This document shows positions 56,170 through 64,000 of a stretch of DNA of 64,000 nt, piece after piece. The stretch lies in assembly GCF_030845995.1 (NCBI RefSeq), contig NZ_CP132719.1, positions 186,001 through 250,000 of the forward strand, written 5' to 3'. The notes beneath the pieces are model-generated. The model was not told the DNA's origin. It searched no databases and was given only the letters and a program-made list of their open reading frames with translations. The stretch is from Geothrix sp. 21YS21S-4. GTDB taxonomy: Bacteria; Acidobacteriota; Holophagae; Holophagales; Holophagaceae. Position 1 is the stretch's first letter; the number at the start of each line of letters is the position of its first letter. The translations under genes and the position numbers were made by a program.

Positions 56170-57171
56170 TCAGCCCGGCCAGCTTCCCGCCGCCTTGAGC
56201 CCCGTCCATTCCGGCAGGCCCAGGGCGAGGTTGAGGTTCTGGACCGCCTGGGCGGCCATGCCCTTCCCCAGGTTGTCCAGGGCGACCATCACCGCCCCGT
56301 GGCCTCCCCGCGCCGCCACCGCGATATCCGCGAAGGCGCTGCCGGTGGTGGCCGCCACCCGGGGGCTGCCGTCCACGATCCGCACGAAGAAGCGATCCGC
56401 GTAGGCCGCCTCATAGCGGGCGCGCAGGGCCGCCGCGTCGATGCCCGCCGGCAGCGGAAACTGCGCGGTGGCGAAGATTCCCCGCACCATGGGCGCGCTC
56501 TGGGGGACGAAGCTCAGCGGAGCCTCCCAGCCCTCCGAAGCGAGGGTGCGGAGCACCTCCGCCTCGTGCTGGTGGCCGAGGACCTTGTAGGCGCGGAAGT
56601 CCGCCGCCCGCGTGGGGTGGTGGGTGGTGTCCGACGGCGCCGCGCCCGAGCCTGACGAGCCCGTGGCGGCGGTAACGGCGATGAAGGCGGGGCGCCACTC
56701 CGCCAGGGGCAATAGCGCCAGATGGAGGGCCGTGGCGAAGCAGCCGGGGTTGGCGATGCGGGTCGCCCCCTTCATGCGCTCGGGCTTCCAGTCCACCAGG
56801 CCGTAGATCCAGGCCGGATCCAGGCGGAAATCCGCGGACAGGTCGATGATCGTGAGGCGTTCCGCCAAGCCCGCCGGCCACGCCGCCTCCAGTTCCGGCC
56901 ACAGCTTCCCGAATTCCCCGTGGGGCAGGGCGGAAAACAGGACCGGCCGTTCGCTCGCGGCCAGAGCCTCCCAGTCCGGCGTCGCTTCGAAGGTTCCCTC
57001 CACCAGCCCGCGGAGATGGGGATGCTGGGCGTGGAAGGGTTTGCCCGCATGGCTGCGCGCCGTCCCGCGGAGCGACGCGACGGCCGGATGCATGGATAGC
57101 CACCGCAGTAGTTCGCCCCCGCCGTAGCCCGAGGCGCCGAGAATGAGGACATCGACTGAGGTCATGGACAT
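56170..57171 (-). CDS. argC: N-acetyl-gamma-glutamyl-phosphate reductase
   Basis: This 333-residue NADPH enzyme makes N-acylglutamate semialdehyde. GASGYGGGELLRWL (NADP site), NPGCFAT with catalytic Cys144, and GSSGSGAAPSDTTHH are family motifs. An in-frame ATG two codons in (57165) is an alternative start. It is the last arg gene of the run, separated from the P-loop gene by a long inverted repeat (57199-57267). If the operon uses succinylated intermediates, this enzyme would act on the succinyl form. Confidence 0.95.
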   Translation of the reverse strand: MSMTSVDVLILGASGYGGGELLRWLSMHPAVASLRGTARSHAGKPFHAQHPHLRGLVEGTFEATPDWEALAASERPVLFSALPHGEFGKLWPELEAAWPAGLAERLTIIDLSADFRLDPAWIYGLVDWKPERMKGATRIANPGCFATALHLALLPLAEWRPAFIAVTAATGSSGSGAAPSDTTHHPTRAADFRAYKVLGHQHEAEVLRTLASEGWEAPLSFVPQSAPMVRGIFATAQFPLPAGIDAAALRARYEAAYADRFFVRIVDGSPRVAATTGSAFADIAVAARGGHGAVMVALDNLGKGMAAQAVQNLNLALGLPEWTGLKAAGSWPG

Positions 57172-57285: not shown

Positions 57286-58338
57286 CTAGACCTTGGCCGA
57301 GATCTTGGGCTCGACCAGGCCCAGCACGAACTTGCCGAGGGCTTCGGCATCGGCGCGGGCGTTGCGGGCGGGGAGGCCGAGGGTGGCGACGAAGCGCTCG
57401 CCCACGCGGTTGTCCGTGGCGGGGCCGGCCACCAGATCGGTCTGGATGCCGAAGGCGGTCTTGAGGTGGGCCACGCCGCCGGAGGCGCCCACGGGGTCGT
57501 TGGCGCACAGGATGAACGCGCCGCCCAGGGCCCGCAGCTCGGCGTCGGCGAGGATGGCCTGGACGCCGTACTCGCCCATGATCCCGTCGCCAGTCTCGGC
57601 CACGATGACGTCCACGCCGTGGGCCGCCAGCTCGGAGAAGATGATCCGCGACACGCCCGCGGCGCTGCCGGCGTCCGTGCAGACGATCCCGGCGTCGGTG
57701 AAGTCCAGCGCCACCTCCGCCCCGTAGTCCCGCATGGCCAGCGCGTCGCGCATGAGCGAGACGCCCGTCAGCTTGCAGGCGCCCACGCGGTAGCCCGCGC
57801 GGCTGAGCTGGCGGACCACGGCGCAGGCGGCGGCGGTCTTGCCCGCGTTCATGCAGGTGCCCGCGATGTAGATGACGGGACAGTGGGCGGACAGGCCCGT
57901 GCCCTTGAGCGCGCCCATGCGGACGTGCGCGGGCTGGCCGGCGCGGGACTGGAATTCCGGGAAGACCTGCACCTGGCCCAGGACTTCCAGCTCGAAGGGT
58001 TTGCCGACGTCGGGGTTGTGGGACAGGCAGGTCCCGAGCACGCCGCCCATGTTGAGCAGGTTCACGGTGTCGCCGGGCTTCAGCGAGGCCGGCATGACGC
58101 CCTCGTAGCCCTGCAGCGCGTTGCGATGCCCCAGCGCACCCACCACGATGTCGCCGTCGTGCAGGGTGCTCATCCGGCCGTGGGGATCCTCCAGCTGGTT
58201 GTAGGTGCTCTTCTCGCCGCGAATCCGGCCGGCGATGACCGAGCCCTCCTCCAGCAGGATCTCCGACCCGAGCGTGAGCGTCCGCCCCAGCCGCAGGTTG
58301 CGGGTGACGGAGGCGAGCTTGTCCACGTGAATGCGCAT
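57286..58338 (-). CDS. P-loop NTPase of unknown function in the arginine operon (DUF1611-like)
   Basis: This 350-residue protein has a beta-rich N-terminal half (about 1-150) and a P-loop domain with Walker A GTCMNAGKT (160-168). KLTGVSLMRDAL, LDFTDAGIVCTD, AETGDGIMGEYGV and CANDPVGASGGV follow. The pattern recalls SIMIBI-class and DUF1611-type NTPases. No arginine-pathway enzyme matches it. It sits between argG and argC, each side bounded by a different long inverted repeat. The ATG at 58338 follows GAGG. Substrate unknown. Confidence 0.75.
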   Translation of the reverse strand: MRIHVDKLASVTRNLRLGRTLTLGSEILLEEGSVIAGRIRGEKSTYNQLEDPHGRMSTLHDGDIVVGALGHRNALQGYEGVMPASLKPGDTVNLLNMGGVLGTCLSHNPDVGKPFELEVLGQVQVFPEFQSRAGQPAHVRMGALKGTGLSAHCPVIYIAGTCMNAGKTAAACAVVRQLSRAGYRVGACKLTGVSLMRDALAMRDYGAEVALDFTDAGIVCTDAGSAAGVSRIIFSELAAHGVDVIVAETGDGIMGEYGVQAILADAELRALGGAFILCANDPVGASGGVAHLKTAFGIQTDLVAGPATDNRVGERFVATLGLPARNARADAEALGKFVLGLVEPKISAKV

Positions 58339-58427: not shown

Positions 58428-59615
58428 TCAGTTGTTTTTTGCTTTGAGCGTCAACACCTGCTGCACCCCGAAGACCTTCGCGAAGCCGGCCGCTTCGGCG
58501 CCGGTCCACAGCTTGTTGGCTTCGCCGTAGGTGGCGATGCGGGGGTCCATGAGGGAGTGCGGTGACTGGACGCCCTCCACCACGAAGGCGCGGGGGTGCA
58601 GGGTGAGGCGGACTTCGCCGGTGACGCAGGCCTGGCTGGATTCTAGGAAGGCCTCCAGATCGCGGGCCAGGGGATCGAAGAAGTGGCCTTCGTGCAGCAG
58701 CGATCCGTAGAGGTTGCCGAGGCTCTCCTTCCAGAAGAGCTGCTTGCCGCTAAGCACCAGCTTTTCCAGCTCCCGGTGGGCGCCGATCAGCAGGTGCGCG
58801 GCGGGGGCCTCGAAGCCCACGCGGCCCTTGATGCCGAGGATGGTGTCGCCCAGATGCACGCCGCGGCCGATGCCGTAGGGCCGGCCGAGGTCGTTGAGCC
58901 GGTGCACCAGCGCCACAGGATCCAGTGCCTCGCCGTCCAGGGACACGGGCACGCCCTTGTCGAACCCGATCACCAGTCCCTTGGGGGGCAGGCTGCCGAG
59001 GGCGCCGCCGGGAAAGGCCGCCTCGGGCAGGGTCGTCCAGGGGTCGAGCGTCTCCCGACCGCCCACGCTGGTGCCCCACATGCCCTCGTTGATGGAGTAG
59101 TCCTTCGTCTTCTCGGGAAAGATCACGCCGCGCTCGGCGCAGTAGGCCATCTCCTCGGCGCGGGACAGCGCCAGGTCGCGGATGGGGGTGAGGATCTCCA
59201 GCTCCGGCGCCAGGGCGCGGAAGGCCACGTCGAAGCGCACCTGGTCGTTGCCGGCGCCCGTGGACCCGTGGGCGATGGCGGCGGCGTCCAGTCCCTTCGC
59301 CAGCTCGGCGACGGCCCGGGCCTGGCACACGCGCTCGGCGGACACGGACAGCGGGTACATCTGCCCGCGCAGGACGTTCCCGTAGACGAGGTAGCGCAGG
59401 TAGCCCTGGAAGAGCCCTGCGCGGGCGTCCACGGTGGTGTGGGAGACCGCGCCCAGCTTGGGCGAGGCCGCCTCGATCCGGGCCAGCTCCTCCGGCGAGA
59501 ACCCGCCGGTGTTCACGGTGACCGTGGCCACGTCGTAGCCCTGCTCCTTGAGGTAGAGCACGCAGAACGACGTGTCGAGGCCGCCCGAAAAGGCGAGAAC
59601 GGCGAGCTTGGTCAT
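58428..59615 (-). CDS. argG: Argininosuccinate synthase
   Basis: This 395-residue enzyme joins citrulline and aspartate. The N-terminal PP-loop LAFSGGLDTS, DARAGLFQGYLRY, the HGSTGAGNDQVRF segment and KDYSINEGMWGTSVGG are family motifs. The ATG at 59615 is fixed by the PP-loop position; the upstream frame reads into the gap before argH and carries no similarity. It follows argH by 46 bases. Confidence 0.96.
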   Translation of the reverse strand: MTKLAVLAFSGGLDTSFCVLYLKEQGYDVATVTVNTGGFSPEELARIEAASPKLGAVSHTTVDARAGLFQGYLRYLVYGNVLRGQMYPLSVSAERVCQARAVAELAKGLDAAAIAHGSTGAGNDQVRFDVAFRALAPELEILTPIRDLALSRAEEMAYCAERGVIFPEKTKDYSINEGMWGTSVGGRETLDPWTTLPEAAFPGGALGSLPPKGLVIGFDKGVPVSLDGEALDPVALVHRLNDLGRPYGIGRGVHLGDTILGIKGRVGFEAPAAHLLIGAHRELEKLVLSGKQLFWKESLGNLYGSLLHEGHFFDPLARDLEAFLESSQACVTGEVRLTLHPRAFVVEGVQSPHSLMDPRIATYGEANKLWTGAEAAGFAKVFGVQQVLTLKAKNN

Positions 59616-59661: not shown

Positions 59662-61020
59662 TCAGTTCGCCCACAGGGCCTCTTCCGCCTGGGCGTGGGT
59701 CCGCTGCCTGGCTTCGATCCACCCGCGGGCGGCGGCGAGGTCGGCGGCGAGGTCATCCAGGGCCAGGTTCCCCGCGCCGCCCAGGTGAGTGGCCGTGAGG
59801 GCCTTGCGGTCGGGGGCGAAGGTGCCCTCCTGGAGCTGCTGCGCGACCTTGCGGTAGGCCTCGCGGAAGGGCAGGCCCTCCTGGACGAGGACGTAGGCCT
59901 GGTGAGCCGCGTAGAGGTCGTCGCTGGAGGCGGCCGCGGCGGCCTCCGCCTTCACCACCAGCGCGGGCACCAGCGGCTTCAGGACGGCGAACAGGTCGTC
60001 GGCGCTGCGGAGCGCGGTGATGAGGGGCTTCTTCAGCAGCTGGAAGTCCCGGTGGTAGCTGGAGGGCAGGCCCGTCGCGACCTGCTCGACGAGGCCCGCG
60101 GCCCCGCGCAGCTCTCGGCAGCGGCCCCGGGCCAGCTCCACCACGTCGGGATTCTTCTTCTGGGGCATGATGCTCGATCCCGTGGTGAAGGCGTCGGGCA
60201 GCCCGAGGAAGCCGAACTCCTCGGTGCTGTAGAGCGACACGTCCCACAGGAACTTCTCCAGCACGCCGCCCGTGGAGGCTGCCCACTGGAGCACCGCGGC
60301 CTCGTGGCGGCCCCGGCTGTTCTGCACGTCGATGGGGCTGCGCTGGACCTTCGAGAAGCCCAGCAGGCTGGCGGTCAGCCCGCGGTCGATGGGCAGCGGC
60401 ACGCCGAAGCCCGCCGCGGAGCCCAGAGGGCACCGGTCCAGGCGGCCGTAGACGCCCTGGAGCGCCTCCAGTTCCTCCAGCAACCCCTCGGCGAAGGCCG
60501 CGGCCCACAGGCCGAAGGTGCTGGGCATGGCGCGGCGAAGGTGGGTGTAGCCCGGCAGGGGCGTGTCGCGATGGGTCTGCGCGAAGGCGAGGAAGGCCTC
60601 GGCCAGCTCCGCCGTCCGCAGGCCCAGGCGGACCAGCTTGTCCCGGAGGTAGAGGCGCAGGGCGAGGATCACCTGGTCGTTCCGCGACCGGCCCAGGTGG
60701 ATCCGGCCGCCGACGGGCCCCAGGTTGCGGGTGAGGTCGGCCTCGATGGCGGTGTGGCCGTCCTCCAGGTGGGGCGGGATGGGGAAGGCGCCCTGCTTGG
60801 CGAGGTTGGCGATGCGGCGCAAGCCCCGCAGCAGCGAGGTGGCGTCCGCTTCGGGAATCAGCCCCGCGGCTCCCAGCATGCGGGCGTGGGCGGCGCTGCC
60901 CAGGGCGTCCCAGGCCAGCAGCGCCAGGTCCGTCTCCGGATCCTCGCCCACGGTGAAGCGGTGGATGGCCGCGTCCAGGGGCACATCCTTGGCCCACAGC
61001 GTGGTGGCTTCGGGTCTCAT
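59662..61020 (-). CDS. argH: Argininosuccinate lyase
   Basis: This 452-residue tetrameric lyase releases fumarate and arginine. RSRNDQV, TPLPGYTHLRRAMPSTFG and the signature loop GSSIMPQKKNPDVVE with the catalytic Ser are intact. It starts at 61020 inside the stop of the upstream argE gene (ATGA), so the two are coupled. Confidence 0.96.
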   Translation of the reverse strand: MRPEATTLWAKDVPLDAAIHRFTVGEDPETDLALLAWDALGSAAHARMLGAAGLIPEADATSLLRGLRRIANLAKQGAFPIPPHLEDGHTAIEADLTRNLGPVGGRIHLGRSRNDQVILALRLYLRDKLVRLGLRTAELAEAFLAFAQTHRDTPLPGYTHLRRAMPSTFGLWAAAFAEGLLEELEALQGVYGRLDRCPLGSAAGFGVPLPIDRGLTASLLGFSKVQRSPIDVQNSRGRHEAAVLQWAASTGGVLEKFLWDVSLYSTEEFGFLGLPDAFTTGSSIMPQKKNPDVVELARGRCRELRGAAGLVEQVATGLPSSYHRDFQLLKKPLITALRSADDLFAVLKPLVPALVVKAEAAAAASSDDLYAAHQAYVLVQEGLPFREAYRKVAQQLQEGTFAPDRKALTATHLGGAGNLALDDLAADLAAARGWIEARQRTHAQAEEALWAN

Positions 61021-62087
61021 CGGGCCTCCGCGGCGGCGCGCAGCTTGAAGAACGCGGGGACGAGGGCGGCGTAGAAGGCCGCGCCCGCGTCGAGTTCGGG
61101 CAGGGTCAGGTACTCGTCGGGACGGTGGCTGCGGAAGGTGTCGCCGGGGCCGGCCTTCACCGCCGGCAGGTCGCCCAGGAAGGCCCAATCCGAGGTGGTG
61201 CCGGAGCCCACCGGACCCGCCTTGCCCGCGGCCTGCAGCGCGGCGCGGACGATGGGGTGGGCGGGATCGGTGCCCTTGGGGAGGTAGCGGCCGGAGTGGA
61301 CCACGACCTCGCTCTCCAGCAGGCCGCGGAAGTCGGCGGCCAGGGCGTCGTGGTCCTGGTCGGGGCCGGTGCGGAGGTCCACGAAGAACTCGCAGGCGTC
61401 GGGCACCTGGTTGCGCCGGAGGCCGCCGCTGATCTGGGTGACCTGCGCCTTCTGGGCGCCCAGCAGCGGGTGCGGCGCGAAGTCCATGGCCGCCACCCGG
61501 GCGATGTCGCGGGCGGCCTTGTGGATGGCGTTCTCGGCGCCCAGCATCTGGGCGTTGGCGACGTGGCCGCTCTGGCCCCGGGCCGTGCACTTCAGCAGGA
61601 GCATCCCCCGCTGAGCCGCGCAGATCCGCAATCCCGTGGGCTCGCCCACCACGGCCGCGTCCAGCGGGCCGAGCTGGTCCAGGATGGTGGCGATGCCCTG
61701 GCCGCCGGTCTCCTCTTCCGCGGTGAGGGCCACCACGACTTCCCCGGGCAGGTCCTGTCCCGCGAGGTCGAAGGCGGCGAGCAGGATGGCGGCGGCGCAG
61801 CCCTTGGCGTCGTTGGCGCCCAGGCCCTGGAGCCGCGTCCCGTGCCACACGGGGGTGAACGGATCGCTGCCCCAGCCGGCGCAGGGCGGCACGGTGTCGA
61901 GGTGCGAGTTGAGAAGCAGGCGAGCGCCGCCCTTGCTCCCGAAGCTGAACCAGAGGTTGTGTCCCTGGCGGTGGACGTCGAATCCGCGCGACGCGGCGAG
62001 GTTCTGGACGAAGTCCGCGATGGGGCCCTCTTCGCCGGAGACGCTGGGCGTTCCCACGAGCCGCGTGAGCAGGTCGGCGGGCGTCAT
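61017..62087 (-). CDS. argE: ArgE/DapE-family deacylase (probable N-acylornithine or N-acylcitrulline deacylase)
   Basis: This 356-residue M20 enzyme has H62/D64 (SHLDTVPP), D93 (ANDAKG), E124/E125 (TAEEETGG), E149 (GEPTG) and a late His (RSHRPDEYL). It is coupled by four bases to argB in front and argH behind. Because the operon begins with an acylornithine transcarbamylase, the substrate is more likely N-acetyl- or N-succinylcitrulline than N-acetylornithine. That is inference from context. Confidence 0.88.
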   Translation of the reverse strand: MTPADLLTRLVGTPSVSGEEGPIADFVQNLAASRGFDVHRQGHNLWFSFGSKGGARLLLNSHLDTVPPCAGWGSDPFTPVWHGTRLQGLGANDAKGCAAAILLAAFDLAGQDLPGEVVVALTAEEETGGQGIATILDQLGPLDAAVVGEPTGLRICAAQRGMLLLKCTARGQSGHVANAQMLGAENAIHKAARDIARVAAMDFAPHPLLGAQKAQVTQISGGLRRNQVPDACEFFVDLRTGPDQDHDALAADFRGLLESEVVVHSGRYLPKGTDPAHPIVRAALQAAGKAGPVGSGTTSDWAFLGDLPAVKAGPGDTFRSHRPDEYLTLPELDAGAAFYAALVPAFFKLRAAAEAR

Positions 62088-63019
62088 GACTGGACTCCCG
62101 CGGCGGCGGGCGTTCCGGCGCCGATCCCCGCACCAATCATGGTGCCGCTGCCCTCGTTGGTGAAGATCTCCGCCAGCAGGGCGTCCGGCGCGAGGCCGCT
62201 CACCAGGTGGGCGCTGGGCACGCCGCTCTGGAGCGCGGTCTTGACGGCCGTGAGTTTGGGCCGCATCCCGCCGGTGATGGCGCCCTTGGCCTCCAGGGCG
62301 GCGAGATCCTCCAGCGTGGCGTGGGGAATGAGGGACGAGGGCTTCGCGACGTCCTTCAGGAGGCCCGGGACGGAGAGCAGGAAGAACAGCTTCTCGGCGC
62401 CCAGGGCCGAGGCCAGGCTGGCGGCGATGGTGTCGGCGTTGGTGTTGTAGATCGCGCCGTCCTCGCCGCCGGAGAGGGGCGCCACCACGGGCACGAATCC
62501 GCCCTCCAGCAGGTGGGCGAGGACGTGGGGGTCCACGCTGTCGATGTCGCCCACCAGCCCGAAATCCACCAGCTGGGGCTCGGTGGCGCCGTCCGGCACC
62601 ACGGGCACCGGCGGGCGGCGGGTAGCCTTCAGCAGGCCCGCATCCACGCCCGTGAGGCCCACGGCCGGGACGCCCGCCGCCTGCAGATCGGCGAGGAGGT
62701 CCATGTGGACCTGTCCCGCGAAGACCATCTTGGCGGCGTCCAGCACCTCGGGGCTCGTGATGCGGCGGCCCGCCACCTTCTGCACAGGGATGCCCATGGA
62801 CTGGCAGACGGCGTCCAGCTCCGCGCCGCCGCCGTGCACCACCACCACGCGGATGGAGAAGGACCACAGCAGCGCGATCTGCTCGCAGAGGGCCTTCCGG
62901 ATCTTGGGCTCGGAGATCACCTCGCCGCCCACCTTCACCACGAACGTCTTGCCGCGGAACAGGCGGACGTAGCGGGAGGCTTCCTTGAGCGCGGCGTAGG
63001 GATTGGGGGACAGGGGCAT
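62084..63019 (-). CDS. argB: Acetylglutamate kinase
   Basis: This 311-residue amino acid kinase phosphorylates N-acylglutamate. VVKVGGE (nucleotide loop), VVVVHGGGAELDAV and YNTNADTIAASLA (catalytic region) are present. A helix in front of the core (ALKEASRYVRLFRGKT) resembles the N-terminal helix of arginine-inhibited hexameric kinases, so feedback inhibition by arginine is plausible. The stop overlaps the argE start. Confidence 0.95.
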   Translation of the reverse strand: MPLSPNPYAALKEASRYVRLFRGKTFVVKVGGEVISEPKIRKALCEQIALLWSFSIRVVVVHGGGAELDAVCQSMGIPVQKVAGRRITSPEVLDAAKMVFAGQVHMDLLADLQAAGVPAVGLTGVDAGLLKATRRPPVPVVPDGATEPQLVDFGLVGDIDSVDPHVLAHLLEGGFVPVVAPLSGGEDGAIYNTNADTIAASLASALGAEKLFFLLSVPGLLKDVAKPSSLIPHATLEDLAALEAKGAITGGMRPKLTAVKTALQSGVPSAHLVSGLAPDALLAEIFTNEGSGTMIGAGIGAGTPAAAGVQS

Positions 63020-63050: not shown

Positions 63051-64000
63051 TCAGAGCTGGGAGAGCAGGTCGTGGATCGTGGCCCGCTGCACGTGGAAGC
63101 GGTTCTCGGCCTCGTCCACCACGCGGCTCCAGGGGCCGTCGAGGACGCTGTCGTGGACCTCGAGGTTGCGGCGCACGGGCAGGCAGTGGAGGAAGACGGC
63201 TTCCTTGGCGGCCTTGGCCATGTGCGCGGCGGTGGGCATCCAGCCGCCGAAGTCCGACATGGGCGCGGCCTCGATTCCGGAGGCGGTGGACGGGCCCCAG
63301 GCTTTGGCGTAGACGGCGGCGCTGCCCTCCAGCGCGGCGTCCTGGTCGTTCGTGTAGATGATCTTCCCGCCCGTGGCGGCGGCGTAGGCCTCGGCTTCCG
63401 CGCGGACCTCGGGCGCCAGCTCGTAGCCCTTGGGATGGGCCACGCGGATCTCGGCGCCGCAGGCGGCGGCGGTCAGCAGGAAGGAGTTGGGCACGGCCTT
63501 GGGCAGGGGCTTGATGTGCGGCGCCCAGGTGAGGGTGACGGGCACCTTCGTGGTGCCGTGGGTCTCCTGCACGGTGAGCAGGTCCGCCAGGCCCTGGTGG
63601 GGGTGCTCCCGGGCGCTCTCCATGCTGAGGACGGGCACCGTGGAGAATCGGCGGAAGGCGCTGATCACGGGATCGATCTCATCGACCGCGTCGCCCTGGC
63701 CGCCGCTGAAGGTCCGCACGGCGAGCAGGTCCGCGTAGCGGCCCAGGACGGGCACGCCTTCGCGCACGTGCTCGGCGCGGTCCTGGTCCATCACGGCGCC
63801 GTCCCGGTCCTCCAGCTTCCAGGTTCCGGCGCCCACTTCCAGGACGATGGCGTGGCCGCCGTGGCGGAGCATCGCCGCCTCGAAGCTGGTGCGGGTGCGG
63901 AGGCTGGGGTTGAAGAAGACCATGCCGAGGATGCGGTCGCGGAAGATGGGGCCGGGCCGCTCCTGCTTCCAGGCCGCGGCCTGCGCCAGGATCCGCCGGA
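63051..64000 (-). CDS. argF': N-acetyl- or N-succinylornithine transcarbamylase (5' end outside the window)
   Basis: This transcarbamylase converts acylornithine and carbamoyl phosphate to acylcitrulline. FFNPSLRTRTSFE (carbamoyl phosphate site), LTWAPHIKPLPKAVPNS and HCLPVRRN are typical of the acylornithine enzymes, not of standard ArgF. The in-frame ATG at 63923 is internal: the frame continues without a stop to the window edge and encodes expected upstream family sequence (WKQERPGPIFRDRILG), so the true start lies beyond 64000. The residue known to decide acetyl or succinyl preference reads as Ala (codon 63774-63776). Confidence 0.9.
   Translation of the reverse strand, partial: RRILAQAAAWKQERPGPIFRDRILGMVFFNPSLRTRTSFEAAMLRHGGHAIVLEVGAGTWKLEDRDGAVMDQDRAEHVREGVPVLGRYADLLAVRTFSGGQGDAVDEIDPVISAFRRFSTVPVLSMESAREHPHQGLADLLTVQETHGTTKVPVTLTWAPHIKPLPKAVPNSFLLTAAACGAEIRVAHPKGYELAPEVRAEAEAYAAATGGKIIYTNDQDAALEGSAAVYAKAWGPSTASGIEAAPMSDFGGWMPTAAHMAKAAKEAVFLHCLPVRRNLEVHDSVLDGPWSRVVDEAENRFHVQRATIHDLLSQL

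Follow-up and report, generated by a model that had tools for sequence, protein, structure and literature searches.

Predicted N-succinylornithine carbamoyltransferase and a candidate N-acylglutamate synthase in the arginine operon of Geothrix sp. 21YS21S-4

Introduction

The closest described relatives of the enzyme considered here are the N-acetylornithine carbamoyltransferase (AOTCase) of Xanthomonas campestris and the N-succinylornithine carbamoyltransferase (SOTCase) of Bacteroides fragilis. According to a transcarbamylase review from the group behind the structures of these enzymes, AOTCases are marked by Glu92, Asn185 and Lys302. SOTCases carry Ala, Ser, Pro, Val or Gln at position 92, Pro at position 185 and Val, Ile or Glu at position 302 (PMC4581275). 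GapMind likewise assigns a preference for the succinyl substrate when Ser, Pro, Ala or Val is present at the site (PMC7311316). In the SOTCase of B. fragilis, the succinyl group is held by His176, Arg178 and Arg278. For the first step of the pathway, ArgA2 (BT3761), a GNAT-type N-succinylglutamate synthase of the Bacteroidetes, and ArgA3 of Veillonella were proposed as replacements of ArgA and ArgJ on the basis of their arg-operon context (PMC9026213).

The stretch of DNA analysed here, referred to as the window, comprises 64,000 nucleotides of Geothrix sp. 21YS21S-4 (NZ_CP132719.1, positions 186,001 to 250,000 of the forward strand). It ends within a gene for an acylornithine carbamoyltransferase, argF', which was compared with both enzyme classes, placed among its homologues and examined in its genomic context.

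Results

Diagnostic residues of argF'

The gene and its three diagnostic codons are located as follows:

63051 to 64000, minus strand: argF', acylornithine carbamoyltransferase, predicted succinyl-type (open reading frame, NCBIfam NF003384, AF2 model)
63774 to 63776, minus strand: codon of Ala90, equivalent to Glu92 in Xanthomonas and Pro90 in Bacteroides
63501 to 63503, minus strand: codon of Pro181, equivalent to Asn185 in Xanthomonas and Pro181 in Bacteroides
63159 to 63161, minus strand: codon of Glu295, equivalent to Lys302 in Xanthomonas and Ile282 in Bacteroides

The full-length protein has 330 residues (G000:C1:249051-250043); its first residues are encoded in the 43 bases beyond the end of the window, the gene start corresponding to a would-be position 64043. 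The original prediction had assigned it correctly to the acylornithine transcarbamylases. It reached 396.7 bits against NF003384 (cut-off 288) and contains the transcarbamylase motifs FFNPSLRTRT (FxxSxRT), HPHQ (HPxQ) and HCLP (HxLP). The proline-rich loop HIKPLPKAVP and an extended 80's loop with Trp, in which GTWKLE aligned to GAWKLE of B. fragilis, place it in the knotted group. The predicted model (AF2, pLDDT 90.5) gave TM values between 0.87 and 0.92 to SOTCase and AOTCase.

The letters GGC on the plus strand at 63774 to 63776 read GCC (Ala) on the minus strand. In phmmer alignments with PDB chains, Ala90 was paired without gaps with Glu92 of X. campestris AOTCase and Pro90 of B. fragilis SOTCase, the loops being QDRAEH in argF', GDTEEH in AOTCase and GDKPEH in SOTCase. 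The alanine that had been proposed for the site separating acetyl from succinyl enzymes is thus confirmed, and alignment with both families placed neither Glu nor Pro there. In an alignment of 29 congeneric genomes, position 90 is occupied by Ala 27 times and by Gln twice, while Pro181 and Glu295 are invariant; Ala90 is therefore not a sequencing accident. The two glutamines (loci L023 and L026 of the congeners G012 and G014) correspond to the fifth residue listed for SOTCases in the review.

That this site decides between the two substrates agrees with the review (PMC4581275) and with the titles of PDB entries 3l02, 3l04, 3l05, 3l06 and 2g7m. The solved structures closest to the argF' model include the AOTCase mutants E92A, E92P, E92S and E92V, with an N-succinyl ligand in their titles, as well as the SOTCase mutant P90E. 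E92A (3l02) was solved with an N-succinyl ligand. The specificity rule applied here rests on the review, GapMind and these PDB titles. By this rule, the triad A90/P181/E295 belongs entirely to the SOTCase set, as opposed to E92/N185/K302 of AOTCase. Because Ala is in the published succinyl set and two further residues agree with it, the site in argF' is succinyl-type and not undecided. The meaning of Ala at this position had already been answered in the literature.

To our knowledge, no enzyme of this type from this phylum has been assayed. A natural substrate with an acyl group other than acetyl or succinyl had been considered in the original prediction, in which the substrate was left open. 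Related enzymes with Thr, Val, Gln or Ala at this position would fit such a substrate, as would the candidate acyltransferase of the operon (see below), which has no known acyl donor. The proposal was dropped because of the published rule on these residues and the structure of E92A with its N-succinyl ligand: Ala lies within the assigned succinyl set (PMC4581275, PMC7311316), argF' has A, P and E at the three positions, and nothing points positively to another acyl group. It is regarded as very improbable.

Over the whole length, the similarity of argF' was even, with ~211 bits to AOTCase and ~210 bits to SOTCase (phmmer, PDB chains). The segment LTWAPHIKPLPKAVPNS matched best to SOTCase with B. 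fragilis chains only (E 4e-10), and its proposed closeness to the succinyl enzyme was thereby borne out. The C-terminal segment, which had been described as closer to the acetyl enzyme, indeed reached ~46 bits with AOTCase and 34 with SOTCase, but ordinary OTCases scored 50, so that it is uninformative on acyl specificity. As ordinary OTCases score equally or higher, the C-terminus was dropped as evidence for the acetyl class. From the succinyl-holding residues of SOTCase, His176 and Arg278 are kept in argF' and Arg178 is replaced by Lys (HIKPLP versus HPRPLP), which is also the residue of the acetyl enzyme.

The even similarity, the Lys at SOTCase position 178 and the name N-acetylornithine carbamoyltransferase borne by NF003384, which argF' passes, might be explained by an AOTCase that lost the Glu with its substrate unchanged, or by a relaxed enzyme accepting both acyl groups. 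This explanation is considered unlikely, since a swap of this single Glu switches specificity (PMC4581275, PMC7311316, PDB titles), Pro181 and Glu295 are likewise succinyl-type, the NCBIfam model does not tell the two classes apart, and the enzymes with the Glu/Asn/Lys triad form a clade apart from argF'.

Homologues and phylogeny

Relatives of argF' were taken from the best 80 loci of a genome scan and 30 of a phylum search, and 117 homologues were typed. The three diagnostic positions co-vary across them: 45 carry Glu/Asn/Lys (ENK), one Glu/Asn/Gln, one Glu/Ser/Glu, and 70 have Ala, Thr, Val, Ser, Pro or Gln with Pro at 181. No Bacteroidota argF' was among the 80 best loci of the scan. The maximum-likelihood tree was calculated with 86 of the 117 homologues and an outgroup; Bacteroidota sequences are absent from it and some long branches meet. 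In this tree, the ENK enzymes form one clade (SH-aLRT 99) of Xanthomonadaceae and relatives, Myxococcota and one Acidobacteriota. The argF' of the window is located outside it in a separate clade of 17 members (SH-aLRT 98) from Acidobacteriota and Gemmatimonadota, without any Glu at the site.

The Glu/Ser/Glu triad belongs to an Acidobacteriota argF' (L224, G212:C107, at ~6.4 kb) that is nested in a non-Glu clade. The stretch read around it contains no further arg genes. Glu may have been regained independently at position 92 in this case, or the function may have changed.

Predicted substrate and reaction

Altogether, argF' can be considered as a predicted N-succinylornithine carbamoyltransferase of the knotted, succinyl-preferring class, with a probability of roughly 0.8. 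The even overall similarity, the Lys at position 178 and the presence of a classical OTCase in the genome were counted against it. The enzyme would transfer the carbamoyl group of carbamoyl phosphate onto N-succinyl-L-ornithine and yield N-succinylcitrulline. The small Ala90 may leave space for the succinyl chain, and with Ala the site would lack the Glu that in acetyl-type enzymes would repel the succinyl carboxylate. The succinyl group would then be taken off N-succinylcitrulline by the M20 enzyme of the operon, and arginine would be completed by ArgG and ArgH. The substrate and the order of these steps are inferred, as is a succinylated upper pathway.

The arginine operon

A complete arg operon surrounds argF' and is conserved in the genus. 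The order on the minus strand is argD, argF', argB, M20 deacylase, argH, argG, PL and argC, with argR divergent upstream. The genes concerned are:

62084 to 63019, minus strand: argB, N-acylglutamate kinase (TIGR00761, 216 bits, cut-off 151)
61017 to 62087, minus strand: M20 deacylase, ArgE/DapE-like (ArgE and DapE models below their cut-offs)
59662 to 61020, minus strand: argH, argininosuccinate lyase (TIGR00838 above cut-off)
58428 to 59615, minus strand: argG, argininosuccinate synthase (TIGR00032 above cut-off; start chosen at MTKLAVLAF)
57286 to 58338, minus strand: PL, P-loop protein of 350 aa, candidate N-acyl-L-glutamate synthase (context, anti-occurrence with ArgJ, AF2 model, fold)
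56170 to 57171, minus strand: argC, N-acyl-gamma-glutamyl-phosphate reductase (TIGR01850 above cut-off)

ArgB consists of a single AA_kinase domain without a fused GNAT domain. The M20 deacylase is probably an N-acylcitrulline deacylase; it scores below the cut-offs of both ArgE and DapE and is therefore uninformative on the acyl group. Nor does the sequence of ArgB, ArgC or ArgD reveal the acyl group.

The genome also encodes an aspartate carbamoyltransferase and a full-length classical OTCase (G000:C1:2803171-2804136; TIGR00658, 397 bits). With the latter, arginine could be made via free ornithine and argF' would be dispensable, which would still be compatible with succinyl specificity. However, this OTCase is encoded outside the arg operon and adjoins carboxylase-like genes, argF' lies within the operon in the congeners read, and no OTCase above the cut-off was found in seven Acidobacteriota with the same type of argF' (G055, G190, G213, G183, G221, G263 and G242). 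That argF' is dispensable in this way is rated as improbable. The genes next to the classical OTCase (L005) resemble biotin-dependent carboxylases, and a catabolic role of this OTCase may be asked about.

The first step of the pathway and PL

ArgJ gave no match in the genome, with a control matching in 10 of 14 genomes, and no N-acetylglutamate synthase was recognisable in the genome. A GNAT search gave 11 matches in the genome, none of them in the operon; ten were scanned, and all stayed below the ArgA-type models. Elsewhere in the genome, a divergent GNAT synthase is possible. PL, encoded in the operon, is the best candidate for the N-acylglutamate synthase of the pathway, at odds a little better than even.

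PL passed no Pfam or NCBIfam model. Its predicted model (AF2, pLDDT 92.5) has a β-rich N-terminal part and a P-loop domain. With VIA-align over Foldseek candidates, the DUF1611 proteins 2g0t and 2obn and the N-acetyltransferase DgcN (7xrj) ranked among the best, with Z values of 17.5, 15.2 and 14.5; dethiobiotin and CTP synthetases also reached Z ~15, and the Foldseek list was headed by SRP GTPases and dethiobiotin synthetases. An ATP-dependent ligase similar to dethiobiotin synthetase, or an accessory or regulatory role, is a possible alternative for PL. Against PF07755, PL scored 17.5 bits and did not pass the gathering score of 25; a weak match was found in 19 of 24 homologues. Its family compared with two DUF1611 proteins gave an hhalign probability of 12%. 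Membership of PL in DUF1611 or the DgcN family was not adopted in view of this value and the leading Foldseek hits. DgcN acetylates D-glutamate. It is the key enzyme of a D-glutamate conversion pathway (PMC12363236). The structural resemblance of the PL model to DgcN makes a function as glutamate acyltransferase plausible. A literature search on DUF1611 found no connection to arginine.

Distribution of PL

PL homologues adjoin argC-argD-argB in Acidobacteriota and Gemmatimonadota, with argF' present or not. In the best 80 loci, PL was found in most succinyl-type clusters that had this part on the contig and in none of the acetyl-type loci. On the level of whole genomes, it was present in 25 of 30 with succinyl-type and in 0 of 20 with acetyl-type argF'. 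For the count within the phyla, homologues with E below ~1e-40 were taken as clear PL, the split between clear and weak being set after the E-values were seen. Among 297 Acidobacteriota genomes, 68 had a clear PL, 111 ArgJ and none both; the assignment of this set to the phylum rests on genome coordinates shared with named records, such as L060 (Pyrinomonas). Among 121 Gemmatimonadota genomes, the values were 18, 51 and 0 (Fisher p 3e-5). Since the genomes share ancestry, p values of this kind exaggerate their independence. Clear PL and ArgJ thus occurred together in 0 of 86 PL genomes of both phyla. Weak PL homologues were found in ArgJ genomes, and those inspected had no adjoining arg genes. 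argF' scored above the cut-off in 63 of the 297 Acidobacteriota genomes; 54 of these had PL and none had ArgJ.

In ten genomes, PL is located ahead of argC-argD-argB in a cluster without argF' (G075, G099, G149, G189, G255, G276, G392, G455, G463 and G475), and most of those from Acidobacteriota encode a classical OTCase. Since PL precedes argC-argD-argB even without argF', its occurrence follows the upper, acylated part of the pathway and is linked to the first step more than to the carbamoyltransferase reaction. Succinyl-type argF' without PL was observed in G190, G213, G183, G221, G263, G242 and a few others. The loci L195 to L197 and L201 to L203 of these six genomes show the order ArgR-argC-argD-argF'-argB, without PL and without ArgJ. 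Such PL-less succinyl-type genomes must be served by another first enzyme.

In a genome that is classified in a different family of the phylum, one contig (L226, G154:C221) encodes PL and argC with 91% and 87% identity to those of the window and is probably a contamination of its assembly. L059, a contig placed in a Diapherotrites archaeal bin, contains a complete arg cluster like that of the window, with PL and succinyl-type argF', which may reflect misbinning or transfer.

Discussion

The operon with PL is a variant of the arginine pathway. If the predicted specificity of argF' is correct, the succinylated arginine route, which was genetically shown in Bacteroidetes, would extend to Acidobacteriota and Gemmatimonadota. 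We know of no assay of this route in the phylum. For these argF' proteins, the NCBIfam name N-acetylornithine carbamoyltransferase is probably a misnomer, and annotation tools would report the first step as missing in these genomes. For this gap, PL is one specific candidate, as it adjoins argC-argD-argB and its clear homologues never occur with ArgJ in the genomes searched. With slightly more for it than against it, PL would be an N-acyl-L-glutamate synthase of a kind not recognised before, without relation to ArgA, ArgJ or the Bacteroidetes GNAT enzyme; the acyl group added here would probably be succinyl. In that case, arginine synthesis would start with PL in a large share of both phyla.

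Compared with known first enzymes, PL is distinct from ArgA2, a GNAT protein, and from ArgA3, which is homologous to N-acetylcysteine deacetylase (PMC9026213). Bacteroides employs ArgA2 for the first step, whereas the argF' operon has the P-loop protein instead. The predicted P-loop domain of PL resembles those of DgcN (7xrj) and the DUF1611 proteins (2g0t, 2obn; Z 14.5 to 17.5), but dethiobiotin synthetases match as well, the N-terminal part of PL is mostly unmatched and PL is located in an arg operon.

The AOTCase of X. campestris (3kzk) has the same fold as argF' with 39% identity and a TM value of 0.90. The wild-type enzyme differs by E92/N185/K302 from A/P/E in argF', while the loop of the E92A mutant (3l02) with its Ala equals the argF' loop. 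Loci of the Xanthomonas type are without the P-loop gene, in contrast to the operon with argF'. The SOTCase of B. fragilis (1js1, 2fg6) shares with argF' the knotted motifs, the proline-rich loop and the Trp of the 80's loop as well as Pro181, His176, Arg278 and a residue other than Glu at position 90. It differs in Pro instead of Ala (90), Arg instead of Lys (178) and Ile instead of Glu (282), at ~38% identity. The SOTCase works in arginine synthesis, and argF' is likewise encoded in an arg operon.
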